A DNA stretch of 64,000 nt, from assembly GCA_030248195.1 (NCBI GenBank), contig JASAND010026155.1, positions 43,155-107,154 of the forward strand. Direction: 5' to 3'. The number at the start of each line of letters is the position of its first letter. Position 1 is the first letter of the stretch. The notes beneath the pieces are model-generated. The model ran no database searches. It was not told the DNA's origin and was given only the letters and a program-made list of their open reading frames with translations. Source of the DNA: Trissonchulus latispiculum (taxonomy: Eukaryota; Nematoda; Enoplea; Enoplida; Ironidae). Of the stretch, positions 26,974 through 61,270 are shown piece by piece. Position numbers and translations under genes: made by a program.

Positions 26974-28705
26974 CTAAAACACTGTCTTAAGGTGGCGATC
27001 CCTTTTGGGCACATATTATTGGTTGACGATTAAAATCAAGATGAAATTTGATGAAACTTTCCAAAATAAGCTCTTTTAGCATTCTAACACCCTCCGCGCC
27101 ATCCCGGTTCAAAAATTCGCCGTCTCCGTTCAGGGCAGTTTTTGCCGATTTTTGACAATTAGATAGTAGCTGCATAGCTATGATTATATTCATTTGAAAG
27201 AACTTGTTGAGCTCTACACTTTTGCTTTTTGAAGCGCCTTCCTAGCTTTTCTCAATAACGAGATATAGCTGATATTCATATTTTGGCGTTGAAAACTTAT
27301 TTTTGCAGAAATCAAATAATCCGCCATTTCTTGAGCTACGCAAGCCGTAAAATTAAACGAAGGGTGTCAATTTGAAGGTATCGTCGAGGTCGATTATTCG
27401 TGGCGTTGTAATCTTCTAAATGCTATCCCGTACGCTGCTATCATAAAAATGTAGTTTTTGCAAAAACATGACCAAATTTTTTCCAGCGATTGTGCAGCAT
27501 TTACTATGCGTGCTAGAGGGTTGCCACTTACTGGACGTGTTTTTCACAAAAATACCCAGGGACCCGTTTTTAGTTGCCCCGATTGCTGATTTCTAGCTAA
27601 AGTGGTCGCTTGCCAAAGTTGGGAAAAGTAGGCAAAATCCAGGTTGCGCCTACATTTTAGCTAATTTCTTTATAACGAAGAGCGGTTTCAAAATAAATAA
27701 ATCCTACCGGCATCAACGGGTTGTCGCAGCCATTTTCCTTTTATCAAAGGGCGCAATTCAAAACGCGTCATTTGTTCCTCTTATATACGGCCAAAACTCA
27801 GTTTGGTACATTTTCACTTTTTGGTTATATTGCAATTTTTTTCTACTCGTTTAGGGCTTTCAAATGAGTACCATATTGACTACTTTTGAGACAATTGTTA
27901 AAAATTCGGGTTTTCCGGGAATTATATACCGGATTTTCAGTTTTTCGGCTATAACTTTCGCTAGAAACATTTCCGGAATATGTCGCAAGAAGGAAAGTTG
28001 TTCAGCTCGACGAGCTCTTTCATTTGAGTACCATATTGACCACATTTGGAGAAATTTTTCAAAATCCGGAATTTTCCGGGTCGAATATCTCGAAATCCGG
28101 AAATTTTCCGGAAATTTCGATTTCAGTTTCGAAATCAGCGTGGCCGACTTACCCTATGACCAACTTTTGAGCGAAATCGGAGACAAAAAGTTTTTAAGTC
28201 CAAAATCCGGGTTTTCGTGATTTCCCGGATTTTCAGTTTTTCGGCTATAACTTTCGCTAGACGCATTTCTGGAAAATGTCGCAAGAAGGAAAGTTGTTCA
28301 GCTCGACGAGCTCTTTCGTTTGAGCACCATATCGACCACTTTTAAAGAAATTTTTAAAAATCCGGTATTTTCCGGGCCAAATATCTCGAAATCCGTAAAT
28401 TTTCCGGAAATTTCGATTTCAGTTTCGAAATCAGCGTGGTCGACTTACCCTATGACCAACTTTTAAGCAAAATCGGAGACAAAAAATTTTTACGTTTCCC
28501 TTGGTCCCCCCCTTACGATTTTTAAATTTCCGGGAGCCGCCATTCCCGGAATCCGGGAGATATCGGGCTGCCCTTACAAACGGGAGCACTTCAGGTCACC
28601 CTACAACTATGGTGAGAATTTCAGCCCGATCGGTCCAGCCAATCTCGAGAAAAAGGGGGGGGGACACAAATGTTGACCGGAATAATAAATAAATAAATAA
28701 ATAAA

Positions 28706-30787
28706 CTAGCGACTGCGAGAGTGTGTTGCCCACCTGCACATTCCATTTAGGTCAGAGCTTTATTTCCTAAGACTTTGATAGCCTCTCGTTCAAGAAATGC
28801 GTGCTTCTGCAATATGCTTGGTTTTATTCGAATACAATAATGACGACACCTTCATCCTAAAATGGTTGCCCTTAAAAGGGCAGTTGGGATAAGTGATTTT
28901 TATATTACACTTTGTTAACACTACTTCATACAAATGGTTGCCCTTAAAAAGGCAGTTGGAATAATTACGAATTACCTTATAACCGACTTTTCAACCAAAT
29001 TGGAGACAAAAAGTTTTTGACCATTTTTGACACCTTTACCTGAACATGGTTGCCCATAAAAGGGCAGTTGGGATAAGCAATTCTCAACTACATATCGCTA
29101 AAAGTTACTTGATATACCATTCTAAGCGTGGCCTAGCAAATACACCGGCTCATCATGACTAACTAGTTCAAAAAACACGGATATTAGGTGTTTCTGGGCA
29201 GTTTGCTCAATTTTGCGGTCTCCAACAGTGTAACTTTTGGCCATATCTCGAGATTTTCAAAAGGTAGAAAAATTTCGATTGCAGATTTGGAATCTGCGTC
29301 CCCGAATTACCTTATAACCGCCTTTTCAACCAAATCAGAGACAAAAAGTTTTTGACCATTTTTAACACCTTTGCCTGAACATGGTTGCCCATAAAAGGGC
29401 AGTTGGGATATGCAATTCTCAACTACATATCGCTAAAAGTTACTTGATAAACCATTCTAAACGTGTCCTAGCAAATACACCGGCTCATCATGACTAACTA
29501 GTTCAAAAAACACAGATATTACGGGTTTCTGGGCAATTTGCTCAATTTTGCGGTCTCCAACAGTGTAACTTTTGGCCATATCTGGATTCTCAAAAGGTAG
29601 AAAAATTTCGATTGCACATTTGGAATCTGCGTCCCCAAATTACCTTATAACGGACTTTTCAACCAAATCGGAGATAAAAGTTTTTGACAATTTTTGACAC
29701 CTCTGCCTGAACATGGTTGCCCATAAAAGGGCAGTTGGGATAAACAATTCTCAACTACATATCGCTAAAAGTTACTTGATATACCATTCTAAGCGTGTCC
29801 TAGCAAATACACCGGCTCATCTTGACTAAGACAAAAAGGTTTAGACCGTCTGGCACTGTGACGACAGTCTGCTCACTTTTGCGGTATCCAACAGTGTAAC
29901 TTTTGGCCACATCTCGAGATTCTCAAAAGTTAGAAAAATTTCGATTGCAGATTTGGAATCTGCGTCCCCGAATTACCTTATAACCGACTTTTCAACCAAA
30001 TCGGAGACAAAAATTTTTTGACCATTTTTGACACCTTTGCCTGAACATGGTTGCCCATAAAAGGACAGTTGGGATAAGCAATTTTCAACTACATATCGCT
30101 AAAAGTTACTTGATATATCATTCTAAGCGTGTCCTAGCAAATACACCGGCTCATCTTGACTAACGAGTTCAAAAAACACAGATATTAGGGGTTTCTGGAC
30201 AGTTTGCTCACTTTTGCGGTCTCCAACAGTGTAACTTTTGCCCATATCTCGAGATTCTCAAAAGGTAGAAAAATTTCGCTTGCAGATTTAGAATCTGCGT
30301 CCCCGAATTACCTTATAACCGCCTTTTCAACCAAATCGGAGACAAAAAGGTTTAGACCGTCCGGCACTGTGGCGACAGTCTGCTCACTTTTGCGGTCTCC
30401 AAAAAAAATTTTTTAAAAATTAAATTCCCTGCCCTGGTCGACTGGGTGGAGATAGAGTGATGAAATTCACGGATGCACACCTTCTTTTCACGCTCTTCAA
30501 AATGAGGTATTAACCAACCCTGTACCCCTTCCCAATCACGAGTTCTAGGGGCGAAAAACAACTGATAATAGGCGTTTCCGGAGAACCAGAACCACCACCT
30601 TCGATTTCTAAAAATTTAAATTTTAAATTCCCTGCCCTGGTCGACTGGGTGGAGATAGAGTGATGAAATTCACGGATGCACACCTTCTTTTCACGCTCTT
30701 CAAAATGAGGTATGAACCAACCCTGTACCCCTTCCCAATCTCGAGTTCTAGGGGGGGGGGACACCCACCTGCTAATAATAATAATAA

Positions 30788-30824
<37 letters not shown>

Positions 30825-33061
30825 CAGACAATAGTAATGGTTGCCCTCTTCCTTTGGAAAGGTGGGCAACACAATAAGCAAATACACCGGCTCATCATGA
30901 CTAACTAGTTCAAAAAACACAGATATTACGGGTTTCTGGGCAATTTGCTCAATTTTGCGGTCTCCAACAGTGTAACTTTTGGCCATATCTGGAGATTCTC
31001 AAAAGGTAGAAAAATTTCGATTGCACATTTGGAATCTGCGTCCCCAAATTACCTTATAACGGACTTTTCAACCAAATCGGAGATAAAAGTTTTTGACAAT
31101 TTTTGACACCTCTGCCTGAACATGGTTGCCCATAAAAGGGCAGTTGGGATAAACAATTCTCAACTACATATCGCTAAAAGTTACTTGATATACCATTCTA
31201 AGCGTGTCCTAGCAAATACACCGGCTCATCTTGACTAAGACAAAAAGGTTTAGACCGTCTGGCACTGTGACGACAGTCTGCTCACTTTTGCGGTATCCAA
31301 CAGTGTAACTTTTGGCCACATCTCGAGATTCTCAAAAGTTAGAAAAATTTCGATTGCAGATTTGGAATCTGCGTCCCCGAATTACCTTATAACCGACTTT
31401 TCAACCAAATCGGAGACAAAAATTTTTTGACCATTTTTGACACCTTTGCCTGAACATGGTTGCCCATAAAAGGACAGTTGGGATAAGCAATTTTCAACTA
31501 CATATCGCTAAAAGTTACTTGATATATCATTCTAAGCGTGTCCTAGCAAATACACCGGCTCATCTTGACTAACGAGTTCAAAAAACACAGATATTAGGGG
31601 TTTCTGGACAGTTTGCTCACTTTTGCGGTCTCCAACAGTGTAACTTTTGCCCATATCTCGAGATTCTCAAAAGGTAGAAAAATTTCGCTTGCAGATTTAG
31701 AATCTGCGTCCCCGAATTACCTTATAACCGCCTTTTCAACCAAATCGGAGACAAAAAGGTTTAGACCGTCCGGCACTGTGGCGACAGTCTGCTCACTTTT
31801 GCGGTCTCCAAAAAAATTTTTTTAAAAATTAAATTCCCTGCCCTGGTCGACTGGGTGGAGATAGAGTGATGAAATTCACGGATGCACACCTTCTTTTCAC
31901 GCTCTTCAAAATGAGGTATGAACCAACCCTGTACCCCTTCCCAATCTCGAGTTCTAGGGGGGGGACACCCACCTGCTAATAATAATAAGAATAATAATAA
32001 TAATAATAATAATAATAAACAGACAATAGTAATGGTTGCCCTCTTCCTTTGGAAAGGTGGGCAACACAATAAGCAAATACACCGGCTCATCATGACTAAC
32101 TAGTTCAAAAAACACAGATATTACGGGTTTCTGGGCAATTTGCTCAATTTTGCGGTCTCCAACAGTGTAACTTTTGGCCATATCTGGAGATTCTCAAAAG
32201 GTAGAAAAATTTCGATTGCACATTTGGAATCTGCGTCCCCAAATTACCTTATAACGGACTTTTCAACCAAATCGGAGATAAAAGTTTTTGACAATTTTTG
32301 ACACCTCTGCCTGAACATGGTTGCCCATAAAAGGGCAGTTGGGATAAACAATTCTCAACTACATATCGCTAAAAGTTACTTGATATACCATTCTAAGCGT
32401 GTCCTAGCAAATACACCGGCTCATCTTGACTAACGAGTTCAAAAAACACAGATATTAGGGGTTTCTGGACAGTTTGCTCACTTTTGCGGTCTCCAACAGT
32501 GTAACTTTTGCCCATATCTCGAGATTCTCAAAAGGTAGAAAAATTTCGCTTGCAGATTTAGAATCTGCGTCCCCGAATTACCTTATAACCGCCTTTTCAA
32601 CCAAATCGGAGACAAAAAGGTTTAGACCTTCCGGCACTGTGGCGACAGTCTGCTCACTTTTGCGGTCTCCAAAAAAAATTTTTTAAAAATTAAATGCCCT
32701 GCCCTGGTCGACTGGGTGGAGATAGAGTGATGAAATTCACGGATGCACACCTTCTTTTCACGCTCTTCAAAATGAGGTATTAACCAACCCTGTACCCCTT
32801 CCCAATCACGAGTTCTAGGGGCGAAAAACAACTGATAATAGGCGTTTCCGGAGAACCAGAACCACCACCTTCGATTTCTAAAAATTTAAATTTTAAATTC
32901 CCTGCCCTGGTCGACTGGGTGGAGATAGAGTGATGAAATTCACGGATGCACACCTTCTTTTCACGCTCTTCAAAATGAGGTATGAACCAACCCTGTACCC
33001 CTTCCCAATCTCGAGTTCTAGGGGGGGGACACCCACCTGCTAATAATAATAATAAGAATAA
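28706..33061 (+). mobile_element. Unit C'1, 5' part with tandem duplications
   Basis: Starts CTAGCGACTGCGAG with 5' box GTGTTGCCCACC (28723-28734). The body has short units around atggttgcccttaaaa and then monomers of about 333 bp. Two complete tails each end in a C' hairpin (30839-30872 and 32034-32067, right arm GGTGGGCAACAC). A third tail stops at its (TAA)n where unit A2 enters. Confidence 0.75.
29471..33057 (+). repeat. Near-identical tandem duplication, three copies of about 1-1.4 kb
   Basis: Segments starting gcaaatacaccggctcatc at 29471, 30878 and 32073 repeat almost base for base. The joints at 30877/30878 and 32072/32073 connect the end of a C' hairpin (ACAATAA) to the middle of the body. 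Copy 2 lacks about 210 bp and copy 3 lacks one monomer. High identity implies recent unequal exchange. Confidence 0.85.
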
Positions 33062-34069
33062 ATCCTACCGGCATCAACGGGTTGTCGCAGCCATTTTCCT
33101 CTTATCTAAAGGGCCAAAACTCAGTTTTGGTAGATTTTCAGAACTTGGTTCTATTGCAACCTTTTTCCTACTCGTTGAGGGCTTTCAAATGAGTACCATA
33201 TCGACTACTTTTGAGACAATTTTTAAAAATTCCGATTTTCCGGGAATTCCCGGATTTTCGGTTTTTCGGACGGAACTTTCGCTAGGCGCATTTTCTAAAA
33301 ATGTCGCAAGAAGCAAAGTTGCTCAGCTCGACGAGTTCTTTCATTTGTGTACCATATCGACCACTTTCCGAAAAATTTTTCAAAATCCGGAATTTTCCGG
33401 GCCTGATATCTCGAAATCCGTGAATTTTCCGGGAATTTCATTTTCAGATTCGAAATCAGCACCACCGACTTACCCTATGACCAACTTTTAAGCAAAATCC
33501 GAGACAAAAAATTTTTAAGTCCAAGATCCGGGTTTTCGTGAATTCCCGGATTTTCAGTTGTCCGGCCATAACTTTCGCTAGACGCATTTCCGGAAAATGT
33601 CGCAAGAAGGAAAGTTGTTCAGCTCGACGAGCTCTTTCATTTGAGTACCATATCGACCACTTTTGGAGAAATTTTTAAAAATCCGAAATTTTCCAGGGCG
33701 AATATCTCGAAATCCGTAAATTTTCGGGAAATTTCGATTTCCGTTTTGAAATCAGCGTGGTCGAGTTACCCTATGACCAACTTTTAAGCAAAATCGGAGA
33801 CAAAAAATTTTTACGTTTCCCTTGGTCCCCCCTTACCATTTTTAAAAATTCCGGGAGCCGCCATTCCCGGAATCCGGGAGGTATCGGGCTACCCCCACTT
33901 CCGGTACCACTTCAGGTCACCCTTCAACTATGGTGATAATTTCAGCCCGATCGGTCCAGCCAATCTCGAGAAAAAGGGGGGGGACAAGATTGTTTACCGA
34001 TATAATAAATAAAGAAACATACCCATAACAAAGGGTTGTCTTTTTTTAAAAAAAATGCGACAACCCAAT
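33062..34069 (+). mobile_element. Unit A2, complete
   Basis: 5' box GGGTTGTCGC at 33079-33088, body of 295-bp-type monomers, tail GGGGGGGGACAAGATTG, (TAAA)n, and hairpin 34033-34066 with right arm GCGACAACCC. Both ends are intact and uninterrupted, so it defines the unit: about 1 kb. Confidence 0.85.
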
Positions 34070-34071
34070 AA

Positions 34072-34891
34072 CTAGCGCTACTGCAAGAATGTGTTGCCCA
34101 CAACAGGTTTTTCTGTTTATTTTTCTGCAATATCTTTCGCTAGACGCATTTTCAGAAAATGTCGCAAGAAGAAAAATTGTTCAGCTCGGCGAGCTCTTTC
34201 ATTTGAATACCATATTGACCACTTTTGGAGAAATTTTTTAAAATCCGGAATTTTCCGGGTCGAATATCTCGAAATCCGTAAAATTTCGGGAAATTTCGGT
34301 TTTAGTTTTGAAATCAGCGTGGTCGAATTACCCTATGACCAGCTTTTAAGCAAAATCGGAGACAAAAAAGTTTTTGGTCCAAAATCCGGGTTTTCGTAAA
34401 TTCCCGGATTTTCAGTTTTTCTGTGATAACTTTCGCTAGACGCATTTTCAGAAAATGTCGCAAGAAGGAAAGTTGCTCAGCTCGACGAGATCTTTCATTT
34501 GAGTACCATATCGACTACTTTTGGAGAAATTTTTCAAAATCCGGAATTTTCCGGGTCGAATATCTCGAAATCCGTAAATTTTCCGGAAATTTCGATTTCA
34601 GTTTTGAAATCAGCGTGGTCGAGTTACCCTATGACCAACTTTTGAGCGAAATCGTAGACAAAAAATTTTTGACCAAATTTTGGATTTTGAAATTTCGCCT
34701 TGGTCCCCCCTTACCAACCGAAAAATTCCGGGATTCGCCATTCCCGGAATCCGGAAGGTATCAAACTGCCCAACTGAGGATCCAACGTCCAAGTGAATAT
34801 CTTCAAAATGAGGTATCAACCACCCCTGTACCCCTTCCCAATCTCGAGATCTAGGGGGGGGACAGACGGATAATAATAATAATAATAATAA
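34072..34891 (+). mobile_element. Unit C2, 5' part
   Basis: Starts CTAGCGCTACTGC, 5' box GTGTTGCCCAC at 34091-34101, two monomers, tail ending GACAGACGG(ATAATA)n. The next unit begins before any hairpin. Its hairpin is taken to be 48816-48849. Confidence 0.75.
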
Positions 34892-35788
34892 CTAGCGCTA
34901 CTGCAAGAATGTGTTGCCCACAACACATTCCTTTGTGGGTATGGGTTTTGCTAGATATATACCTTCTAAGTTATTTCTGTTCAGGAAATCTGCCCCAGGA
35001 CTCAAAGAGCTTTCAATTAAGCACCATATTGCCCATGTTTCAACGAATTTTTGAAAATCCGGTTTTTTCGGAAATTCCGGATTTTTCAATCTACGGCCAT
35101 AACTTTCACTAGAAGCATTTGCGGAAAATGTCGCAAGAAGGAAAGTTGCTCAGCTCGACGAACTCTTTCGTTTGAGTACCATATCGACCACTTTCGGAAA
35201 AATTTTTCAAAATCCGAAATTTTCCGGGGCGAATATCTCGAAATCCGTAAATTTTCGGGAAATTTCGGTTTTAGTTTTGAAATCAGCGTGGTCGAATTAC
35301 CCTATGACCAACTTTTGAGTGAAATCGGCGACAAAAAATTTTTCGACCCAAAATCCGGATTTTCGTGAATTCCCGGATTTTCAGTTTTTCGGACATAACT
35401 TTCGCTAGACGCATTTTCAGAAAATGTCGCAAGAAGGAAAGTTGTTCAGCTCGGCGAGCTCTTTCATTTGAGTACCATATCGACCACTTTTGGAGAAATT
35501 TTTTTAATTTGAAATTTTGGGTGGGGGTATCTAAAAACGCGGAATTTTGGGGATTCTGTATTTTTGTGTTTAAAACGGGGGGGGGGTGTCCTCTGTGGCT
35601 TTTTTGGGGGGAAGGGGAAAAAAAAATTTTTTGAAATTTGGGTTTTTGTTTTGCGGTGCCCTTTAATTTAATTCGGGCCGCGGGGGAGGGGGGGGGTCGC
35701 GGGGGGGGGTGTCGGGGTGGTAAAATAGGCAACCCGTCTCTGGGTGGGGGGGGGGGGGGGACAGACGGAATAATAATAATAAAAGTAA
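34892..35788 (+). mobile_element. Unit C3, 5' part
   Basis: 5' box GTGTTGCCCAC at 34911-34921, then monomers that become strongly G/T-skewed from about 35515, tail G-run plus ACAGACGG and (TAA)n. The hairpin is taken to be 48750-48783. Confidence 0.7.
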
Positions 35789-36105
35789 CTAGCAAAGTGG
35801 CGAGAATGGGTTGCCGCGGCATTTTCCCTCTGGGGTGATGAATTTTTCCAGACGTATACATCTGTTCTTTGCCCATGTATACAATTTCATGCAACAACAA
35901 TTGAACAAAATAGTAATGTGACTGTATATGGAACTAAAAAGAGACACAGCTCAAATTTGTCGAAAAGAAAATTTTCTCATTCTCAAGTATTAGAAAGATG
36001 ACTAGAGGTTTTTACCTATTTGACAGACTACATTAGCACAAAATATTGAAATTAACGATATATCCCACCACATATTCTGAGATGTTTTAGTAACAGATGC
36101 TAATG

Positions 36106-36460
36106 TAGTCCGGCCAGAGCCCCGTCAGCGAAATCCGAACATACCACGAGAAGGTGGGGTTGACTTGATTCGCAAAGTTTTTCCTTTACGAACCCTTATG
36201 CGACCACGGTGTGTGGCCAGGAGTGTATGGAAATCTGCACCTACCAGATAACCACGAACTCCCTCCGTTCTCCTTTACAGTTTTTACATATACAGTCACA
36301 TTACCATTACACAGTGTTATAGAAAGAATACAATATTTCAGGTAGATTAGATGTCTATTCATGCTGTATATTTCGGCACTTTCTCGCCTTCATATTAAAT
36401 TTTCTCAAATCTTTTCAAGTACTTACGTATCAGAGTCACCTCCACTGGATCAGTAAGGGA
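36106..36460 (-). CDS. Possible extra exons 3' of the Helentron gene
   Basis: Two exon-like blocks on the minus strand: about 36425-36460 (acceptor accag, frame CPSLTDPVEVTLI, donor GTAAGT) and about 36125-36285 (acceptor ctgtaaag). Depending on the donor, the second reads to an early stop (REFVVIW) or a longer basic frame ending RGMFGFR. No family recognised. They could be alternative 3' exons of the Helentron gene, a captured fragment, or chance. Confidence 0.25.
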
Positions 36461-37229
36461 TGGACACTGGTACAATTTATGAAAATCTACGTACGTATAT
36501 TATACTAAACAAATTCAAGAAATAAATTCTAGTACAATTTAATGCTACAAAACGTACACACGCATACTTTAGTTAAAAATTGTATTGCGAAAGGAATTGC
36601 TACGTTGAACACCTCATTCAAGCATCGATTCAAATGGCATCGACACAAACTATCAAACATTGTCAGATCATCATATCTGAATACTGAACTTTACACATGT
36701 TCATGAAAGACTGAACTGCATCAGTAACAGTCTAACAGATCATAAACATGTTTAATGACCTCGACAATAGAAAAGATTGATAAGCAATTAGAAATTAGAA
36801 TTTTCCCACGGAAATTGCTATGATGCACAGTATTTTAAGATGCGAAATTAACTCAGAATGCCTAAGATGACATAAATTATGCAGACATAATTTTGACTAT
36901 GCAATTCAACAGCTCCATCGTGGTAACAGTGAACTATCCTTCGATTTTTAAAATTAGTGACATCCTCAAATAAACTGGACAATTATTGAAAGACATTAAT
37001 GATAAGCACAAAATTTGAGCACTAAAATCTTGATAGCTGAACTGTATCAGTAACAGCTTTCAATCTTTCAAATTAGAAATTATGATTTAACAAAGCAGAT
37101 ACATATATATAACAACAGACAGTACACAATACATACACAGTAAGTACAACAATTCCGATTACTAAGTATTCATAGGCAGTAATACAGTCAACATTACAAC
37201 AATACACTTATATACATTTTACAGTTCTA

Positions 37230-37380
37230 CGTACATTTCTTACTTTTCTTTCTTCATTTTTTCGTTTTTTTTTCATTTTTTTCATTTTTTCATTTTTTTT
37301 CATTTTTTTTCATTTTTTTCCATTTTTTTCATTTTTTTCATTTTTTTCATTTTTTCTTTTTTCAATTTTTCTTTTTATCT
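37230..37380. repeat. (CATTTTTTT)n low-complexity tract
   Basis: About 15 units of 8-10 bases, each C or CC followed by A and a T-run, 3' of the Helentron gene. Confidence 0.85.
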
Positions 37381-37693
37381 ACATTTTACTATATACATAT
37401 AAACTACGTACACAGGCATACTACAAAATAAACAACAACAGTACTAACAAAATCAGTATCAGGATTCAAATACAGTACGTATATATATATTACATAATGC
37501 TGATGTGCTATATAACATAAGGAATAGGGGAAACAACTGTTCTCAGAGCGGCAAGAGTCGAATACCTGAAACCTGCACGACATTCGTAACAGGATTCAGA
37601 TATATGGATCAACGAAATGGATGTATAGAGGTTGGTGGCAGTGTGCTATACTGCTAACCTGTTCCAAAGGCACAACCATTAGGGAATGTTTGA

Positions 37694-45929: not shown

Positions 45930-46029
45930 GATCAATACTAATTTCGAATACAGCAAATATTATAAAAATCAATAAGATTAATCAACTCTAAACAGCACAA
46001 AAATAAGATGAAACAAAATACATTAGCAA

Positions 46030-46805: not shown

Positions 46806-46809
46806 CTTA

Positions 46810-47961: not shown

Positions 47962-48664
47962 CTAGCGCTACTGCAAGAATGTGTTGCCCACAACACGTTC
48001 CTTTGTGGTATAGATTTTGCTAGATACCTGTTAAGCTGTTTCTTTTCAGGAAATCTGTCCCACGACTCAAAGAGCTTTCAATTAAGTACCATATTGTCCA
48101 TGTTTCAACGAATTTTTGAAAATCCGGTTTTTTCCGGAAATTCTGGATTTTCCGATCTGCGGCCATAACTTTCGCTAGAAGCATTTCCGGAAAATATGGT
48201 AATGATAAAAATTACTCAGCTCGACGAGCTCTTTCATTTGAGTACCATATCGACCACTTTTGGAAAAATTTTTCAAAATCCGGAATTTTCCGGATAGAAT
48301 ATCTCGAAATCCGTAAATTTTCCGGAAATTTCGATTTCAGTTTCGAAATCAGCGTGGTCGAGTTACCCTATGACCGACTTTTGAGCCAAATCGGAGACAA
48401 AAAATTTTTGATCAAGTTTTGGATTTTTGAAATTTCGCCTTGGTCCCCCCTTACCATCCGAAAAAATCCGAATTTTCAAAACCCGGAATTTCGGAACCAT
48501 CTTGCTTCCGGGAGATGTCCTGGTCAAGGGCTTCAAAATAAGGTATCAACCATCCCTGTATCCCTTCCCAATCTCGAGATCTATGGGGGGGACAGACGGA
48601 TAATAATAATAAGCACAGACCAATAACAAGGTGTTGCCCATTCCTTTGGAAAAGTGGGCAACAC
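47962..48664 (+). mobile_element. Unit C4, complete
   Basis: 5' box GTGTTGCCCAC at 47981-47991, monomer body, tail GGGGGGGACAGACGGATAAT, then a C hairpin 48631-48664 with right arm GTGGGCAACAC. It sits between the D1 tail and the D1 hairpin. Confidence 0.85.
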
Positions 48665-48694
48665 AATAATAAAAACGGACATACCCAGATGAAA

Positions 48695-48849
48695 GGGTTG
48701 CCTTTTTGTGTAAAAAGCGGCAACCCAATAAGCACAGACCAATAACAAGGTGTTGCCATTTCCTTTGGAAAAGTGGGCAACACAATAATAATAATAAGCA
48801 CAGACCAATAACAAGGTGTTGCCCATTCCTTTGGAAAAGTGGGCAACAC
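48695..48849 (+). repeat. Stack of three orphaned hairpins (D, C, C)
   Basis: Right after C4 come a D hairpin (48695-48726) and two C hairpins (48750-48783; 48816-48849), each with its class lead (ACGGACATACCC for D, GCACAGACCAATAACA for C) and separated only by AATAA-type bases. Their order closes units D1, C3 and C2, the reverse of their opening order. Confidence 0.8.
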
Positions 48850-48851
48850 AA

Positions 48852-50455: not shown

Positions 50456-51253
50456 CTAGCGCTACTGCAAGAATGTGTTGCCCACAGCAGGTTTTTCTGT
50501 TTATTTTTCTGCCATAATCTTAGCTAGACGCATTTTCACAAAATGTCGCAAGAAGGAAAGTTGCTCAGCTCGACGAACTCTTTCGTTTGAGCACCATATC
50601 GACCACTTTCAGAGAAATTTTTCAAAATCCGGAAGTTTCCGGGTCGAATATCTCGAAATCCGTAAAGTTTCGGGAAATTTCGGTTTTAGTTTCGAAATCA
50701 GCGTGGTCGAATTACCCTATGACCAACTTTTGAGTGAAATCGGAGACAAAAATTTTTTCGACCCAAAATCCGGATTTTCGTGAATTCCCGGATTTGCAGT
50801 TATTCGGACATAACTTTCGCTAGACGCATTTTCGGAAAGTATGGTAATGATAAAAATTACTCAGCTCGACGAGCTCTTTCATTTGAGTACCATATCGACC
50901 ACTTTTGGAGAAATTTTTCAAAATCCGGAATTTTCCGGGTCGAATATCTCGAAATCCGGAAATTTTCCGAAAATTTCGATTTCAGTTTCGAAATCAGCGT
51001 GGTCGAGTTACCCTATGACCAACTTTTGAGCGAAATCGGAGACAAAAAATTTTTGACCAAATTTTGAATTTTGAAATTTCGCCTTGGTCCCCCCTTACCA
51101 ACCGAAAAATTCCGGGATTCGCCATTCCCGGAATACGGAAGGTATCGGACTGCCCAACTGAGGATCCAACGTCCAAGTGAATATCTTCAAAATGATGTAT
51201 CAACCACCCCTGTACCCCTTCCCAATCTCGAGATCTAGGGGGGGGACAGACGG

Positions 51254-51284
<31 letters not shown>
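50456..51284 (+). mobile_element. Unit C6, 5' part
   Basis: 5' box GTGTTGCCCAC at 50475-50485, two 295-bp-type monomers, tail with ACAGACGG(ATAATA)n. The matching hairpin is 55937-55970. Confidence 0.75.
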
Positions 51285-51286
<2 letters not shown>

Positions 51287-52240
51287 CCTACCGGCATCAA
51301 CGGGTTGTCGCGCATTTTCCTCTTATTCTTCCTCTGTGCTTATATTGGCTCGGGCTAAAACTCAGTTTTGAAACATTTTCAGACTTTGGCCCTATCACAA
51401 CTTTTTCCTACTCGCTGAGAGCTTTCGAATAAGTACCATAAAGTCTACTTTTGTGAAATTCTTAGAAATCCGGGTTTTCGTGAATTTCCGGATTTTCAGT
51501 TTTTTGGCTATAACTTTCGCTAGACGCATTTCCGGAAAATGTCGCAGGAAGGAAAGTTGTTCAGCTCGGCGAGCTCTTTCATTTGAGTACCATATCGACC
51601 TTTTGGAGAAATTTTTCAAAATCCGGAATTTTCCGGGTCGAATATCTCGAAATCCAGAAATTTTCCGGAAATTTCGATTTCAGTTTCGAAATCAGCGTGG
51701 TCGACTTACCCTATGACCAACTTTTAAGCAAAATCGGAAACAAAAAATTTTTAAGTCCAAAATCCGGGTCTTCGTGAATTCCCGGATTTTCAGTTTTTCG
51801 GCTATAACTTTCGCTAGACGCATTTCCGGAAAATGTCGCAGGAAGGAAAGTTGTTCAGCTCGGCGAGCTCTTTCATTTGAGTACCATATCGACCACTTTT
51901 GGAGAAATTTTTCAAAATCCGGAATTTTTCGGGTCGAATATCTCGAAATCCAGAAATTTTCCGGAAATTTCGATTTCAGTTTCGAAATCAGCGTGGTCGA
52001 CTTACCCTATGACCAGCTTTTAAGCAAAATCGGAGACAAAAAATTTTTACGTTTCCCTTGGTCCCCCCTTACGATTTTTAAAATTCCGGGATCCGCCATT
52101 CCCGGAATCCGGGAGATATCGGGATGCCCTTACAAACGGGAGCACTTCAGGTCACCCTACAACTATGGTGAGAATTTCAACCCGATCGGTCCAGCCAATC
52201 TCGAGAAAAAGGGGGGGGACACAAATGTTGACCGGAATAA

Positions 52241-52271
<31 letters not shown>

Positions 52272-52329
52272 AGAAACTTAGCCATATCAAAGGGTTGTCT
52301 TTTTTTAAAAAAATGCGACAACCCAATAA
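51285..52329 (+). mobile_element. Unit A3, complete
   Basis: 5' box GGGTTGTCGC at 51302-51311, monomers, tail ACACAAATGTTGACCGG, (TAAA)n, lead GAAACTTAGCCATATC and hairpin 52292-52324. Confidence 0.85.
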
Positions 52330-52333
52330 ATAA

Positions 52334-53659
52334 GTCAAAAGGCATCAAGTGGTTCCCGCCCGACATTTTTCCGTTTATAGAATGAGTTTATAATATTCGG
52401 GGTCCCATAACTCATTTGTCCTATATTTTGACGCGTTAACCCTATTACGACTATTTATCTACGTAACGAGAGCTTTCGAATGATACCCATATTGTTGGGT
52501 TTCCGTTACTTTCAATTTTGACCCATTTTGACCGGTTTTGGCCATTTTTGATCTCCTTGAGGCTCCGTATCTCATTTTCCCCACATTTTGGTGCGTTGGC
52601 TCTATTACAACTTTTTATCTACGTAATGAGAGCTTTCGAATGATACCAATATTAGGCAGTTTCCGTTACTTTCAATTTTTACCCATTTTGACCGTTTTTG
52701 GTCATTTTTGACCATTTTGCGGCCTCGTATCTCATTTTTCCCACATTTTGGTGCGTGGGCACTATTGCAACTTTTTATCCACAAATCGATAGCTTTCGAA
52801 TGGTATCCCTATTGGGGGTTTCCGACAACTTTTAATTTTGGCCATTTTGACCGTTTCTGGCCATTTTTGACCCCTTTGGAACCACGTAACTCATTTTTCC
52901 TACATTTTGACGCTTTGGCCCTATTACAACTTTTTATCCACGCAACGAGAGCGTTCGAATGACACCGGTATCAGCCGTATCCGACAATTTTCAATTTTGA
53001 CCCATTTTGACCGTTTCTGGCCATTTTTGACCCCTTTGGAGCCCCGTAACTCATTTTTCCTACATTTTGACGCTTTACCCCTATTACAACTTTTTACCTA
53101 CGCAACGAGAGCTTTCGAATGATACCCATATTGGGGGGTTTCCGTCACTTTCAATTTTGACCATTTGCATCATCACCGTATCGAGTAATTGCTAATTGCC
53201 TGACACTATGGAACCCAGGTGCCCGGAGGGTCTTATCGCATCGGGTGCCACCCTACATGCCAAATTTCAGGCCAACTAGTTGACTCTAGCTCGAGATAAA
53301 GGCGGAAAGCCCCTTCAAACGGCCGTTTTGGCCGTTTTTGGCCATTTTTGACCCTTTTTCGCCTCATAACTAAAAATGGGTGCATTTTCAGGCCTTGACC
53401 TAATTACAACTTTTTCATTACTCGCCGAGAGCTTTCGAATGATACCAAAATTAGCTCATTTGGACAACTTTTTTATTTTACTCATTTTTACTCACGGGGC
53501 TGCTCCGGGAGCACCTCTGCTCCCCCGGGGCTCCCCGCGCTTCCGGGAGCAGTTCAAGTCAAGACCTTCAAAATGAGGTATCAACCACCTCTCTACCCCT
53601 TCCCAATCTCGAGATAGACATGGGGGACACGAAATTGTGGACAATAATAATAAGAATAA
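52334..53659 (+). mobile_element. Unit B1, hairpin missing
   Basis: Starts GTCAAAAGGCATCAAG, 5' box GGTTCCCGCC at 52351-52360. The body is 160-bp-type satellite, then a block with gctccgggagcacctctg and a tail GGGGGACACGAAATTG. Unit B2 enters at its (TAA)n, and no second B hairpin follows. Confidence 0.7.
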
Positions 53660-54877
53660 GTCAAAAGGCATCAAGTGGTTCCCGCCCGACATTTTTCCGT
53701 TTATAGAAAGGGCTCATTTCCTGGAAAAGTATTCGGTTTCATGCTTTGCGCCTATTATAGCAGTTTCCCAGCTCAACAAGAGCTTTCGATTTATACCACT
53801 AATAGCTCGATTGGACAAAGTTCAATTTTCACTCATTTTGACCAATTTGGCGATATTTGCCCCATTCGAAGGCTCGTAGCTCATTTTTCTCACACTTTGA
53901 CGCGATGAGCCTATTACAACTTTTTATCTAAGCGACAAGAGCTTTCAAATGATATAGATATCAACCGAATTGAACAACTTTCAATTTTGGCCCATTTTGA
54001 CCGTTTCTCGCCATTTTTGACCCCTTTGGAGCCCCGTAACTCATTTTTCCTACATTTTGACGCTTTATCCCTATTACAACTTTTTACCTACGCAACGAGA
54101 GCTTTCGAATGGTATCCATATTGGGGGGTTTCCGACAATTTTCAATTTTGGGCCATTTTGACCGTTTCTGGCCATTTTTGACCCCTTTGGAGCCCCGTAA
54201 CTCATTTTTCCTATATTTTGACGCTTTACCCCTATTACAACTTTTTACCTACGCAACGAGAGCTTTCGAATGATATCCACATTGTGGGGTTTCTATCACT
54301 TTCAATTTTGACCATTTGCAGCATCACCGTATTGAGTAATTGCGAATTGCCTGACACTATATTGGAGGTGCCCGGAAGATCTACCCGCATCCGGGTGCCA
54401 CCCTACATGCAAAATTTCAGGTCAACTAGTTGACTCTAGCTCGAGATAAAGGCGGAAAACCCCTTCAAACGGCCGTTTTGGCCGTTTTTGGCCATTTTTG
54501 ACCCTTTTTCGCCTCATAACTAAAAATGGGTGCATTTTCAGGCCTTGACCCTATTACAACTTTTTCATGGCTCGACGAGAGCTTTCGAATGATACCAAAA
54601 TTAGCTCATTTGGACAACTTTTTTATTTTACTCATTTTTACTCACGGGGGTGCTCCGGGAGCACCTCTGCTCCCCCGGGGCTCCCCGCGCTTCCGGGAGC
54701 AGTTAAGGTCCATGCGCAGATCCCCTGCAAATTTCAGCCCGATTGGCCCACCCAATCTCGAGATAGAGGGGGGGACACGAAAATGTGAACAATAATAATA
54801 AGAAGAAGAATAAGAAAAATAAACATGTCCAGAACATAGGGTTCCAAACCCTTTGGAAAAGGGCGGGAACCCAATAA
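53660..54877 (+). mobile_element. Unit B2, complete
   Basis: 5' box GGTTCCCGCC at 53677-53686, satellite body, tail GGGGACACGAAAATGTG, A/TAA-rich linker, lead AACATGTCCAGAACAT and hairpin 54839-54872 (right arm GGGCGGGAACCC). Confidence 0.85.
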
Positions 54878-55915
54878 ATCCTACCGGCATCAACGGGTTG
54901 TCGCGCATTTTCCTCTTATTCCTCTGTGCTTATATTGGCTCGGGCTCAAACTCAGTTTTGGAACATTTTCCGACTGGCCCTATCACAACTTTTTCCCTAC
55001 TCGCTGAGAGCTTTCGAATAAGTACTATTTTGACAACTTTTAGGACAATTTTTAAAATTCCGGTTTTTCCGAGATTTCCCGGATTTTCAGTTTTTCGGCC
55101 GTAATTTTCGCTGGACGCATTTCCAGAAAATGCCGCAAGAAGGAAAGTTGCTCAGCTCGACGAGTTCTTTCATTTGAGTACCATATCGACCACTTTCGGA
55201 AAAATTTTTCAAAATCCGGAATTTTCCGGGCCGAATATCTCGAAATCCGTGAATTTTCCAGGAATTTCAATTTCGGATTCGAAATCAGCGCCACCGATTT
55301 ACCCTATGACCAAGTTTTAAGCAAAATCCGAGACAAAAAATTTTTAAGTCCAAAATCCGGGTTTTCGTGAATTCCCGGATTTTCAGTTTTTCGGCTATAA
55401 CTTTCGCTAGACGCATTTCCGGAAAATGTCGCAAGAAGGAAAGTTGTTCAGCTCGGCGAGCTCTTTCATTTGAGTACCATATCGACCACTTTTGGAGAAA
55501 TTTTTCAAAATCCGGAATTTTCCGGGTCGAATATCTCGAAATCCGGAAATTTTCCGGAAATTTCGATTTCAGTTTCGAAATCAGCGTGGTCGACTTACCC
55601 TATGACCAACTTTCAAGCAAAATCGGAGACAAAAAATTTTTACGTTTCCCTTGGTCCCCCCTTACGATTTTTAAATTTCCGGGAGCCGCCATTCCCGGAA
55701 TCCGGGAGATATCGGGATGCCCTTACAAACGGGAGCACTTCAGGTCACCCTCCAACTATGGTGAGAATTTCAGCCCGATCGGTCCAGCCAATCTCGAGAA
55801 AAAGGGGGGGGACACAAATGTTGACCGGAATAATAAATAAATAAATAAATAAATAAAGAAACTTAGCCATATCAAAGGGTTGTCTTTTTTTTAAAAAAAT
55901 GCGACAACCCAATAA
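54878..55915 (+). mobile_element. Unit A4, complete
   Basis: 5' box GGGTTGTCGC at 54895-54904, monomers, tail ACACAAATGTTGACCGG, (TAAA)n, hairpin 55877-55910. Same subtype as A1 and A3. Confidence 0.85.
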
Positions 55916-55936
55916 TAAGCACAGACCAATAACAAA

Positions 55937-55970
55937 GTGTTGCCCATTCCTTTGGAAAAGTGGGCAACAC
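55937..55970 (+). repeat. C-class hairpin closing unit C6
   Basis: GTGTTGCCCA (55937-55946) and GTGGGCAACAC (55960-55970) with the C lead just upstream. It stands alone after A4, away from any C 5' box. C6 is the nearest unclosed C unit. Confidence 0.75.
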
Positions 55971-55972
55971 AA

Positions 55973-57215
55973 CAAGCAAAGTGGCATGAACGGGTTGCCG
56001 CTGCATTTTTCCTCTTATAAATAAGATAAGTCAATTATCCTACGATATTACCCCTTGTCCCTCTGACAGCTTTTTATATACTCAGAGATCATTCAATCAG
56101 GGTATTTTTTAGGGATTTTTTTTCGGGGGGGGGCTTCCCGGGGGGGGGCCCCCCGCGGAGCAGGGGGGGGTAAGAAATTTTCGGGGGGGGGCGGAAGATT
56201 TTTTTGCAAAAATGAGCCAAAAAATGGTATTTTTTGGCGTATTTCGCATGGTGAAACGCAAAAAGTTCTCAAAAATGCCAGGATTTAAGCTAAAAATAGC
56301 TATTTTTACAAAAAAATCTCCGGAAAATTTTTGAAAATTGGCCTATTTTTGGCAAAAATTTGGGCCTCCAAAAAATCCCGGGGGGGGGAAGCAAAAATCC
56401 CGGGAGGGGGCGATTTCGGGGGGGGAAGGCATTTTCGGGGGGGGGGGGAAGGTCAATTTCGGGGGGGGGGCCCCCGGGGCCCCCCCCCCCCCCCTGTAAA
56501 AAATACCCTGTTCAATTGATACCCATATTGTCGTTTTCCATAACTTTTGATTTTGACCCATTTTGGCCGGCTTTGGCCATATTTGACCCCTTTGAGGCCC
56601 CGTAACTCATTTTCTGTACATTTTGGTACTTTGTCCCTATTACAACATTTTATCTACGCAACGAGAGCTTTCGAATGATATCCATATTGGGCGGTTTCGG
56701 TTACTTTCAATTTTGACCCATTTTGACCGATTTTGTCCATTTTTGACCCATTTGAGGCTCCGTAACTCATTTCTCCTCCACTTTGGTGCGTTGGCCCTAT
56801 TACAACTTTTCATCTACATAACGAGAGCTTTCGAATGATACCGATATGAGCTTGATCCGAGAACTTTCAATTTTGAGCCATTTTGACCGTTTTTGGTCAT
56901 TTTTGACCATTTTCGGCCTCGTAACTCAAAATGAGTGCATTTTCAGGCCTTGACCCAATTACAACTTTTTCATTACTCGCCGAGAGCTTTCGAATGATAC
57001 CAAAATTAGCTCATTTGGACAACTTTTTCATTTTACTCATTTTTACTCACGGGGGTGCTCCGGGAGCACCTCTGCTCCCCCGAGGCTCCCCGCGCTTCCG
57101 GGAGCAGTTCAAGTCAAGACCTTCAAAATGAGGTATCAACCACCTCTGTACCCCTTTCCAATCTCGAGATAGAGGGGGGGGACAAGAATCCGGAGAATAA
57201 TAATAATAATAATAA
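55973..57215 (+). mobile_element. Unit D2, variant, hairpin missing
   Basis: Starts CAAGCAAAGTGGCATG, 5' box GGGTTGCCGC at 55992-56001. The satellite body is split by a MITE. Its tail is ACAAGAATCCGGAGAATAAT rather than the GTCACGAG of D1 and D3, so it is a separate subtype. No D hairpin remains to close it. Confidence 0.65.
56098..56510. mobile_element. MITE with poly-G/poly-C subtermini
   Basis: Perfect 14-bp TIRs CAGGGTATTTTTTA / TAAAAAATACCCTG, flanked by the direct repeat TTCAAT (56092-56097 and 56511-56516). Long G runs alternate with cttcccggg-type blocks inside both ends. It interrupts a satellite monomer of unit D2, so it is younger than that unit. Confidence 0.85.
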
Positions 57216-58698
57216 GTCAAAAGGCATCAAGTGGTTCCCGCCCGACATTTTTCCGTTTATAGAACGAGTTTATGTATATACTTTCTGGAAAAATATGCAG
57301 TTACTAGTTTTCGTCTATTATAACTGGTTCCCACTCCCAGCTCACCAAAAGCTTTCGATTTATACCACTATCAGACCAATCCGACAAAGTTCGATTTTGA
57401 CCGTTTTTGCTCATTTTTGCTCCATTTGAAGTTCTGTAGCTCATTTTTCGTACACGTTGACGCTTCGGTCTTATTACAACTTTTTATCTACTCAACGAGA
57501 GCTTTCGAATGACGTCGGTATCGACCGGATCCGACAATTTTCACTTTTGACCCATTTTGACCTGTTTTTGGCCATTTTTGACCCCTTTGAGGCCCCGTAA
57601 CCCCTAATTTTTTACATTTTGACAGCGGCTTGGCCATATTACAACTTTTTATCCACGCAACGAGACCTGTCGAATGGTATCCATATTGGGGGGTTTCCGA
57701 CAACTTTTAATTTTGGCCCATTTTGACCGTTTCTGGCCATTTTTGACCCCTATGGAACCACGTAACTCATTTTTCCTACATTTTGACGGCTTGGCCCTAT
57801 TACAACTTTTTATCCACGCAACGAGACCTGTCGAATGGTATCCATATTGGGGGGTTTCCGACAACTTTTAATTTTGGCCCATTTTGACCGTTTCTGGCCA
57901 TTTTTGACCCCTATGGAACCACGTAACTCATTTCTCCTACATTTTGGTGGTTTACCCTTATTACAACTTTTTACCTACGCAACGAGAGCTTTCGAATGAT
58001 ACCCATATTGGGGGTTTCCGTCCCTTTCAATTTTGACCCATTTTGACCGGTTTTGGTCATTTTTTGTCCCCCTTTGAGGCCCCGTAACTCATTTCTCCTA
58101 CATTTTGGTGCTACCCCTATTACAACTTTTTACCTACGCAACGAGAGCTTTCGAATGATACCCATTTTGGGGGGTTTCCGTCACTTTCAATTTTGACCAT
58201 TTGCAGCATCACCGTATCGAGTAATTACGAATTGTGTGACACTATGGAACCCAGGTGCCCGGAGGGTCTTCCCGCATCGGGTGCCATCCTACATGCAAAA
58301 TTTCAGGCCAACTAGTTGACTCTAGCTCGAGATAAAGGCGGAAAACCCCTTCAAACGGCCGTTTTGGCCGTTTTTGGCCATTTTTGACCCTTTTTCGCCT
58401 CATAACTAAAAATGGGTGCATTTTCAGGCCTTGACCCAATTACAACTTTTTCATGGCTCGACGAGAGCTTTCGAATGATACCAAAATTAGCTCATTTGGA
58501 CAACTTTTTTATTTTACTCATTTTTACTCACGGGGGTGCTCCGGGAGCACCTCTGCTCCCCCGGGGCTCCCCGCGCTTCCGGGAGCAGTTCAAGTCAAGA
58601 CCTTCAAAATGAGGTATCAACCACCTCTCTACCTTTTCCCAATCTCGAGATAGAGGGGGGGGACACGAAAATGTGAACAATAATAAGAATAAGAAGAA
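57216..58698 (+). mobile_element. Unit B3, 5' part
   Basis: 5' box GGTTCCCGCC at 57232-57241, satellite body, tail GGGGACACGAAAATGTG(AACAATAAT). Unit D3 enters here, and the B hairpin 59461-59494 follows D3. Confidence 0.8.
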
Positions 58699-59350
58699 CT
58701 AGCGAAGTAGCGAGAATGGGTTGCCGCGGCATTTTCCGTTTATAGATGGCCATATCTCCCAAAAGAGGCACCGTTGTGACCCAGTATAGTCTGATTCGTA
58801 TAGTCCGTATCGAGAGCTCTCAATAGAGTACCATATTGACCATATTTAGAGTTGTTTAAATTTTTGGTCATTTTGGTCGATTTTGACCATTTTTGACCCA
58901 TTTGCGGCTCTGTAACTCAATTTTCGTACACTTTGGCGTTTTGGCCCTATTACAACTTTTTATATACTCAATGAGAGCTTTCGAATGACACCGATATGAG
59001 CCCGATCCGAGAACTTTCAATTTTGAGCCATTTTGGCCGTTTTTGGGCATTTTTTGACCATTTTTCGCCTCATAACTCAAAATGAGTGCATTTTCAGGCC
59101 TCGACCCAATTACAACTTTTTCATTACTCGCCGAGAGCTTTCGAATGATACCAAAATTAGCTCATTTGGACAACTTTTTTATTTTACTCATTTTTACTCA
59201 CGGGGCTGCTCCTGGAGAACCCCAACCTGCTCCCCCGAGGCTCCCCGCGCTTCAGTCAACACTTCAAGTCAAGACCTTCAAAATGAGGTATCAACCACCT
59301 CTCTACCCCTTCCCAAACTCAAGATAGAGAGGGGGACAGGGAGTCACGAG

Positions 59351-59382
<32 letters not shown>

Positions 59383-59436
59383 CGGACATACCCAGATGAA
59401 AGGGTTGCCTTTTTGTGTAAAAAGCGGCAACCCAAT
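58699..59436 (+). mobile_element. Unit D3, complete
   Basis: Starts CTAGCGAAGTAGCGAG, 5' box GGGTTGCCGC at 58718-58727, three satellite monomers, tail GGGACAGGGAGTCACGAG, (TAA)n, lead ACGGACATACCCAGATG, hairpin 59402-59433. This short complete unit shows which tail and hairpin belong to class D. Confidence 0.85.
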
Positions 59437-59460
59437 AATAATAAACATGTCCAGAACATA

Positions 59461-59494
59461 GGGTTCCAAACCCTTTGGAAAAGGGCGGGAACCC
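59461..59494 (+). repeat. B-class hairpin closing unit B3
   Basis: GGGTTCC (59461-59467) and GGGCGGGAACCC (59483-59494) with the B lead AACATGTCCAGAACAT, directly after D3. Confidence 0.8.
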
Positions 59495-59499
59495 AATAA

Positions 59500-60519
59500 A
59501 TCCTACCGGCATCAACGGGTTGTCGCGCATTTTCCTCTTATTCCTCTGTGCTTATATTGGCTCGGGCTCAAACTCAGTTTCGGAACATTTTCAGACTTTG
59601 GCCCTATCACAACTTTTTCCCTACTCGCTGAGATCTTTCGAATAAGTACCATATTGACAACTTTTAGGACAATTTTTAAAATTCCGGTTTTTCCGGGAAT
59701 TCCCGGATTTTCAGTTTTTCCGCTGTAATTTTCGCTGTACGCATTTCCGGAACATGTCGCAAGAAGGAAAGTTGCTCAGCTCGACGAGTTCTTTCATTTG
59801 TGTACCATATCGACCACTTTCCGAAAAATGTTTCAAAATCCGGAATTTTCCGGGCCTAATATCTCGAAATCCGCGAATTTTCCGGGAATTTCATTTTCAG
59901 ATTCGAAATCAGCACCACCGACTTACCCTATGACCAACTTTTAAGCAAAATCCGAGACAAAAAATTTTTAAGTCCAAAATCCGGGTTTTCGTGAATTCCC
60001 GGATTTTCAGTTTTTCGGCCATAACTTTTACTAGACTCATTTCCGGAAAATGTCGCAAGAAGGAAAGTTGTTCAGCTCGACGAGCTCTTTCATTTGAGTA
60101 TCATATCGACCACTTTTGGAGAAATTTTTAAAAATCCGAAATTTTCCGGGGCGAATATCTCGAAATCCGTAAATTTTCCGGAATTTTCGATTTCAGTTTC
60201 GAAATCAGCGTGGTCGACTTACCCTATGACCAACTTTTAAGCAAAATCGGAGACAAAAAATTTTTACGTTTCCCTTGGTCCCCCCTTACCATTTTTAAAA
60301 ATTCCGGGAGCCGCCATTCCCGGAATCCGGGAGGTATCGGGCTACCCCCACTTCCGGTACCACTTCAGGTCACCCTTCAACTATGGTGATAATTTCAGCC
60401 CGATCGGTCCAGCCAGTCTCGAGAAAAAGGGGGGGGACAAGATTGTTTACCGATATAATAAATAAAGAAACATACCCATAACAAAGGGTTGTCTTTTTTT
60501 GAAAAAAATGCGACAACCC
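59500..60519 (+). mobile_element. Unit A5, complete
   Basis: 5' box GGGTTGTCGC at 59517-59526, monomers, tail ACAAGATTGTTTACCG, (TAAA)n, lead GAAACATACCCATAAC, hairpin 60486-60519. Same subtype as A2. Confidence 0.85.
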
Positions 60520-60548
60520 AATAATAATAATAAACAGACAATAGTAAT

Positions 60549-60651
60549 GGTTGCCCTTTTTCCTTTGGAAAGGTGGGCAACACAATAAATAAATAAAGAA
60601 ACTTAGCCATATCAAAGGGTTGTCTTTTTTTAAAAAAAAATGCGACAACCC
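60549..60651 (+). repeat. Terminal hairpins C' and A closing C' and A1
   Basis: A C' hairpin (60549-60583, right arm GGTGGGCAACAC) is followed by (TAAA)n and an A hairpin (60617-60651). No 5' box lies between them and A5, so they close outer units. All repeat-array sequence ends at about 60656. Confidence 0.8.
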
Positions 60652-61270
60652 AATAAAAAAGGGTCCCCCAGCTATTTGATAGTGGAATCGAATGATGTGG
60701 CTGATGCCTGATGGAAAAAATTTACTCTAGTGTGCAAAAAATCTGGAAAAATAAATTACTTCGAAAATGCAGTAAAATAATTTCCGAGAACTAAAGTTAG
60801 TTTCACTGCATTCATTAGAAGGAGAAAATGTTAAGCTTCATTTCGATATAAGAATGGCTTTTTAACTGCAAGGAATGAATGAGTAATAAGGGTTCAAAGT
60901 TGACGTCTCCAAAAGGAATCACCACCTTAAAACAGTAGAGGTAATAAAAGAAATTGTTAATCTGGGTCTCATGACACATTCATTACATTTCTTTTCATAG
61001 AAAAGAAGTAGGCTCCCTGCATCATACATACGGACGTACATACACTACGAAAATGTCCAAAAGATTTTAATATAGACCTAAGACCACGGCTAAGTGTACG
61101 ATACAAACAGATATAGACCCCCAGCGTTACGAACACAATCATTAACAGTGGAAACACAACTTATACGTAGGTATCGAAGTTGAACGTTTTCTTAAAAGCA
61201 GCAATAATGCTGTTTCGAGATAAGCAACAGGATATAATGGATGGAAGGTCTTTAAGCAACTAATGTCTAC

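Follow-up and report, generated by a model that had tools for sequence, protein, structure and literature searches.

The DNA considered here is a stretch of 64,000 nucleotides from the nematode Trissonchulus latispiculum (contig JASAND010026155.1, positions 43,155 to 107,154 of the forward strand); the whole stretch is called the window, and coordinates count from its first letter. In it, an intron of the ERp44 gene holds an array of transposable units that an earlier description, which we call the sequence-only reading, had presented as a bracket-like nest of Helentron-type elements. We find that the array is a real and largely parseable nest of a known element class, with one protein-coding member inside. 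Two minus-strand exons, at 61,273-61,440 and 26,853-27,029, align with residues 269-315 and 316-348, respectively, of the ERp44 chain 5gu6_A, and a GT near 61,270 and an AG near 26,974 flank the array. The exons on the two sides are consecutive, and the nest therefore lies in one intron, as had been proposed. This intron is about 34.3 kb long, and the nest runs in the sense direction of the gene.

An exact-match scan of the whole window was made for the arms of four classes, A (GGGTTGTCGC), B (GGTTCCCGCC), C (GTGTTGCCCAC) and D (GGGTTGCCGC), and for their reverse complements, the C arm being common to the C and C' units. The arms are 10-11 nt long and match exactly, class by class, at both ends of the units. 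The scan returned 17 ends with the arm itself, or boxes (five A, three B, six C with C', three D), and 16 with its reverse complement, or hairpins (five A, two B, seven C with C', two D); all lie between 27,701 and 60,651, and the flanks of the window hold none. Across 100 dinucleotide shuffles of the array, chance arms of all classes together averaged 0.09 and never exceeded 2. Orientation is identical for 17 of 17 units. The bracket string given by the sequence-only reading was thus reproduced for its 17 units, save that two C' hairpins had gone uncounted; the protein-coding element in unit D1 had also been missed.

Termini, direction and class membership

On the minus strand the components of a closed unit are, in order, TT, a 5' subterminal inverted repeat (subTIR) with an inverted repeat forming a hairpin, a tail, a microsatellite of TTA or TTTA, tandem repeats, joined in D1 by a gene, a 3' subTIR and TT. 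At the 5' end the arm follows TT directly and pairs with a nearby second arm; at the 3' end it lies 17-19 nt ahead of TT. In DINE-1 and HINE elements the 5' subTIR is 2-4 nt from the end and is followed by an adjoining inverted repeat and a microsatellite, while the 3' subTIR lies further inside (PMC4067079, PMC7492417; here and below, statements on the literature apply to those parts of each paper that were available). A plus orientation of the gene is that of the majority in PMC4067079 (2014). The sequence-only reading had taken the box for the 5' end and the hairpin for the 3' end; because of the arm distances, the DINE-1/HINE layout with its inverted repeat and microsatellite on the hairpin side, and the strand of the D1 gene, we have exchanged the two.

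Its assignment to the Helentron type agrees with the TT insertion, the subTIRs, the 5' hairpin and the Rep-helicase-endonuclease gene. Insertion at TT with no target duplication is seen at 17 of 17 3' ends and 16 of 16 5' ends, and matching subTIRs are present at both ends of the units. The family rule for HINEs asks for a subTIR of at least 11 bp (PMC4067079), a length reached here by some classes only. A 5' subTIR near the 5' end with its adjoining inverted repeat is found, as are the microsatellite and central tandem repeats, which are common in HINEs and not universal. Five of the 5' hairpins fold better than shuffles, with z from -2.5 to -4.3. Only C, C' and D show, on inspection by eye, a CT-N-GC/GC-T-AG pattern at the 3' end. 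The 3' end of D2 (55,973-56,010) is divergent, with CA..TG in place of CT..AG, possibly a compensatory change. We rejected a canonical Helitron1, with its insertion between A and T, 5' TC and 3' CTRR, as the units insert at TT and begin with GGGTT or GTGTTG; only C, C', D1 and D3 have CTAG at the 3' end. The C-class 5' end, used as a DNA pattern, had no match in viral contigs.

The two additional C' hairpins, whose arms lie at 30,862 and 32,057, are inside C'1, in a tandem repeat (29,470-33,038) whose 1,195-bp unit includes the 5' hairpin. Two copies of this unit are 99.3% identical over 1,094 columns, and a third has 94.0% and 95.4% identity to that tandem pair. A rolling-circle origin of the repeated unit was set aside because, by eye, the unit seems to take in 4 bp of host microsatellite. 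There are also 72-bp repeats in the C' units (28,865-28,960; 49,011-49,480) that carry GGTTGCCCTTAAAAGGGCAGTTGGGATAA, similar to the left part of the C' hairpin, and judging from this likeness the central repeats of the C' units may be derived from the 5' end.

Pairing of the ends

Pairing was scored with a dynamic program that finds the largest class-consistent, non-crossing matching, and 5,000 shuffles of the tail labels were scored in the same way. When the two duplicated C' hairpins are left out, 14 of 14 tails pair (shuffles: mean 8.4, maximum 12), and when they are included, 15 of 16 do so (mean 8.6, maximum 13); none of the 5,000 shuffles reached 14 or 15, respectively. The absence of crossing pairs had been claimed before, with a shuffle of the hairpin order as the proposed check, and it holds. 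Much of the signal stems from seven uninterrupted copies (A2, C4, A3, B2, A4, D3 and A5); with these removed, the long-range pairs alone match in seven of seven cases. Closure is complete for A (5/5) and C (4/4), as the sequence-only reading had it, and partial for B (2/3), D (2/3) and C' (1/2). Its more general statement that each unit is closed by a hairpin is right for 14 units and wrong for B1, C'5 and D2, whose boxes have no partner and which its own string had left open.

Subtypes within the classes give a second line of evidence. Tails and bodies were compared over slices cut by eye, a few of which are several bases out of register, that of A2 included, which lowers the A2 figure. The A1 body beside the microsatellite is 97-98% like A3 and A4 and 82-88% like A2 and A5. 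Its assigned tail, at a distance of 32 kb, shows 97% similarity to those of A3 and A4 and 93-94% to those of A2 and A5; A2 and A5 form a subtype separate from A1, A3 and A4. Body and tail of A1 are both A3/A4-like, in line with the earlier remark that the closing A hairpin has the A1 tail subtype. For C2, C6, C'1 and B3 the subtypes likewise match those of the closest copy that is uninterrupted or duplicated.

Ten units were excised in silico by script. In five cases (C4 from D1, D1 from C3, C3 from C2, C'1 from A1 and D3 from B3) the tail, microsatellite and body of the host rejoin in the manner of uninterrupted copies, and the junction carries roughly two additional T and no longer duplication. 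For the other five units excision says less, since a further unit adjoins them on the 5' side. (TTTA)n, the repeat type of A1, flanks both the 3' end of C'1 and the C' tail whose arm stands at 60,573; on account of these flanks that tail most likely belongs to C'1, with C'5 as the open unit. The deepest branch, from the outside A1, C'1, C2, C3, D1 and C4, is closed at every level, so the six levels described earlier are present. What the sequence-only reading had offered as a novelty, balanced brackets, stands as a pattern but not as a new principle, because any series of clean insertions gives non-crossing brackets.

The protein-coding Helentron

Unit D1 has two open reading frames (ORFs) on the minus strand. 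In Pfam, the first (40,608-45,959) matches Helitron_like_N at 3.2e-17 and PIF1 at 7.8e-22, and behind the endonuclease in the second lies a UCH/USP domain (37,694-38,650; E 4.5e-20 to 3.5e-21). All three parts of a Helentron gene, Rep, PIF1 helicase and C-terminal apurinic/apyrimidinic (AP) endonuclease, are found in this unit. The 406-bp gap between the two ORFs has, by eye, intron-like GT-AG ends, and the frame seems to be kept. Visible in the ORFs are QVHTHGLFW, which we take to be the Rep motif, YIISYIMKY, which presumably holds the tyrosines, and Cys and His boxes that we assume to be those of a USP. The 5' end of D3 is 96% like that of D1, and by this comparison D3 looks like a short derivative of D1.

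In NCBIfam the first ORF gave weak helicase, kinase and ATPase matches far under the cut-off, and the second gave none. No relatives of the Rep-helicase ORF were found in viral contigs, and of four bacterial or archaeal pattern matches none was confirmed. Helentrons are known to carry deubiquitinases of the OTU and VTD types (PMC9741609), and no USP in these elements turned up in the literature searches made.

Insertion sites and proposed mechanism

The sequence after the 3' end is TTAT in 12 of the 17 units. Most 3' ends are within the microsatellite of another unit or 2-9 nt from the 5' end of another unit, the latter being the case for six (C2, C'5, B1, A4, D2 and A5). A junction of a B 5' end, a short spacer and an A 3' end is present twice, at 54,862-54,880 and 59,484-59,502. 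All 17 matches in the window to at least four AAT or AATA units are inside the array, some of them within one repeat. In the seven uninterrupted copies, only 78 of 722 occurrences of AA (TT on the minus strand) are in the microsatellite. The earlier proposal that each new unit enters the microsatellite beside the hairpin of its host agrees with the five excised junctions and with the TT and TTAT ends.

We consider it highly probable that the nest is made of Helentron and HINE rolling-circle units and was built by their successive insertion into one another's microsatellites within the ERp44 intron. The transposase would insert copies at TT, most commonly at TTAT, and the microsatellite of each unit would present a run of TT sites on one strand only. 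Later copies would land in the microsatellite of a host, in the orientation of that host, and split its 5' hairpin from its body; repeated landing would produce nested brackets. It is the combination of TT insertion with TT-rich microsatellites in a fixed orientation that suggests that the units serve as one another's landing sites, and as AAT/AATA repeats have TT on a single strand, the host would determine the orientation. The three missing 5' ends would most simply be recombination losses between neighboring microsatellites or like tails. Those of C'5 and D2 may have gone in one deletion between the TTA repeats beside the C' tail, and that of B1 in a collapse of two like tails. In C2 and C3 two like tails adjoin and both have been kept.

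Several observations weigh against this account or parts of it. Three of the 17 units have no 5' end. Seven 3' ends fold like shuffles (z from -0.3 to 0.9), and folding thus does not support the 3' palindrome of HINEs. Among the 840 distinct tail orders, 6 (0.7%) match all seven long-range pairs equally well, so label order is only moderate evidence for these pairs. In C3 and D1, identity over the 60 bp of body next to the microsatellite fails to mark out their own class; this body has been replaced by G-rich sequence in C3, and both units show only a short class motif there. Over 931 columns, private substitutions number 23 in A1, 19 in A2, 23 in A3, 10 in A4 and 11 in A5, and these counts give no clear indication that the outer units are older. 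The D1 endonuclease scores 26.0 bits for Exo_endo_phos_2 in the whole ORF, below the Pfam cut-off of 27.4 (28.9 bits when its 226-residue region is scanned alone); among solved structures it matches only DNase I, at E 0.1-0.15, and an alignment-free structure model of the region had a mean pLDDT of 32.7 and was discarded. Finally, 40 of 62 ATAA sites in the uninterrupted copies are already in the microsatellite, which leaves any targeting beyond a TTAT-like motif unproved; a simple preference for TTAT could account for most of the insertion pattern.

A bolder version, which we think improbable, is that the 5' microsatellite is the element's own landing pad, kept because it draws later copies, including those of other classes, into the parent in a fixed orientation, and that the class-specific subTIR pairs work as brackets, with the transposase starting from a 5' hairpin and reading across foreign units to the 3' end that belongs to it. 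If this were true, nests would store elements safely in a form that could still be mobilised, and composite elements could arise from them. A self-made target would also help to explain why many DINE-1-like elements have a microsatellite.

Other origins of the array

Composite units, such as D1 with C4 or B1 with B2, might have been copied as one piece, in which case the brackets would be partly imported: the transposase would start at an outer 5' end and stop at a matching 3' end, as proposed for Fusarium and maize. Such copying is published for multi-terminus Helitrons (PMC5148889, PMC3288121), and it would fit the two 3' ends and single 5' end of B1/B2 and the repeated B-A junction. The Fusarium case, however, has several 5' ends and one 3' end, the opposite of B1/B2, C'5 and D2, and A4 and A5, which stand at the repeated junction, are 94.0% alike, no closer than A3 and A4 (93.4%) or A2 and A5 (93.3%). 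On balance we find this explanation unlikely.

Growth mainly by recombination, that is, by unequal exchange and duplication between similar repeats or microsatellites, seems to us distinctly less likely again. The 1,195-bp unit of C'1, with copies 99.3% identical over 1,094 columns, is a tandem duplication, all units share a single orientation, and the absence of some tails points to deletions between similar repeats; on the other side stand the 14 matching, non-crossing tails with agreeing subtypes, the placing of both unit ends at TT beside class-specific termini, and differences of 6-30% between most copies of a class, unlike fresh duplications. We give least credence to an assembly artefact in the unit order of this repeat-rich region, which the near-identity of the two C'1 units (99.3%) among other highly similar repeats and the G-rich, scrambled stretches near 35,500-35,770 and 56,100-56,500 might suggest, since random joins would not make all 14 tails match without crossing and with subtypes in agreement, and the array is bordered by two consecutive ERp44 exons in correct order and strand.

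We return, then, to successive insertion as the preferred explanation. A parseable nest records events in their relative order, each host preceding its guest, and it allows tests of Helentron insertion sites and of class-specific recognition between pairs of 5' and 3' ends. It also bears on the growth of introns rich in tandem repeats.

Features of the window

The units and the D1 ORFs are listed in Table 1. G-rich, scrambled stretches at 35,490-35,770 (C3) and 56,100-56,500 (D2) are either real decay or poor sequence. Outside the nest, a serine/threonine protein phosphatase that by eye resembles PP1 has exons at 11,250-13,652 (+), and ORFs resembling C2H2 zinc fingers, with weak Pfam matches (the last ORF unscanned), lie at 6,354-7,443 (+). 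A tRNA gene at 19,850-19,922 (+) is the sole Rfam match in the window.

Table 1. Units of the nest, D1 reading frames and host intron (window coordinates)
Feature	Position	Strand	Remarks
A1, outermost, split	27701..60651	-	3' end 27,701; 5' hairpin arm 60,642-60,651
C'1, split, in TTTA microsatellite of A1	28706..60583	-	1,195-bp repeat and two extra 5' hairpins within
A2, uninterrupted	33062..34066	-	
C2, split by C3	34072..48849	-	
C3, split by D1	34892..48783	-	microsatellite-side body G-rich, scrambled
D1, protein-coding Helentron, split by C4	35789..48726	-	
D1 ORF: Helitron_like_N (Rep), DUF6570, PIF1 helicase	40608..45959	-	profile matches
D1 ORF: helicase C-terminal part, AP-type endonuclease, USP/UCH domain	37694..40201	-	profile matches
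C4, uninterrupted, sixth level	47962..48664	-	
C'5, 3' end and body as far as microsatellite	48852..50451	-	5' end not found
C6, split; contains A3, B1, B2, A4	50456..55970	-	
A3, uninterrupted	51285..52324	-	
B1, 3' end and body	52334..53658	-	own 5' end not found
B2, uninterrupted	53660..54872	-	
A4, uninterrupted	54878..55910	-	
D2, divergent 3' end, body as far as microsatellite	55973..57213	-	5' end not found
B3, split by D3	57216..59494	-	
D3, uninterrupted, apparent short derivative with 5' end of D1	58699..59433	-	
A5, uninterrupted	59500..60519	-	
ERp44 intron holding the nest	26974..61270	-	splice ends placed by eye

Comparison with known systems

By the title of a 2010 paper by Coates, a Helitron-like element is said to disrupt (GAAA)n microsatellites in Lepidoptera. 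A close likeness in structure is to HINE and DINE-1 elements, which share with the units of the nest the subTIRs, the 5' inverted repeat, the microsatellite and the central tandem repeats, along with TT insertion without target duplication and extra T at the ends (PMC4067079, PMC2374699). They differ in that the 3' subTIR lies 38-60 nt from the 3' end in the mite elements and 17-19 nt from it here, in their 3' palindrome, which is unsupported here, and in their microsatellite, GTCY there and TTA/TTTA here. The same literature mentions clustering and tandem arrays of Helitrons (PMC4067079, PMC2374699). The Cg_HINE of the Pacific oyster likewise has a 5' subTIR, inverted repeat and microsatellite at the left, satellite-like repeats, and a 3' subTIR at the right; integration into other repeats is mentioned for it, whereas microsatellite-mediated nesting was not found in the available text (PMC7492417).

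Nesting itself is documented in Fusarium and maize. The FoHelis of Fusarium oxysporum, which are Helitron2-like, have asymmetric terminal inverted repeats and a 5' hairpin, and their self-insertion gives nested, multi-terminus elements, one copy lying 2 bp upstream of the 5' end of another (PMC5148889). The available part of that paper has one nested example, and a microsatellite target was not found in it. Maize also has Helitrons within Helitrons, with multiple termini, although the case shown involves three elements and no shared landing site was found in the text at hand (PMC3288121). MuTAnT of Medicago, which targets TA microsatellites, has a microsatellite as its target in common with the present units, but it is a Mutator-like DNA transposon and not a rolling-circle element (PMC4486113). 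Of 322 repeats in Calliphora, 11 are nested, and Helitrons account for three of these (PMC3630058); a review mentions shuffled Helitron loci in the oyster (PMC12628747).

In the literature on nested Helitrons and Helentrons and on microsatellite targeting, as far as it was available, we found no comparable array, which does not prove that none exists. That Helitrons insert into one another, form nests and can have multiple termini is already known from the parts of the Fusarium and maize papers just cited (PMC5148889, PMC3288121); what is unusual in the ERp44 intron is the depth of the nest, the number of classes and the landing site that they share.

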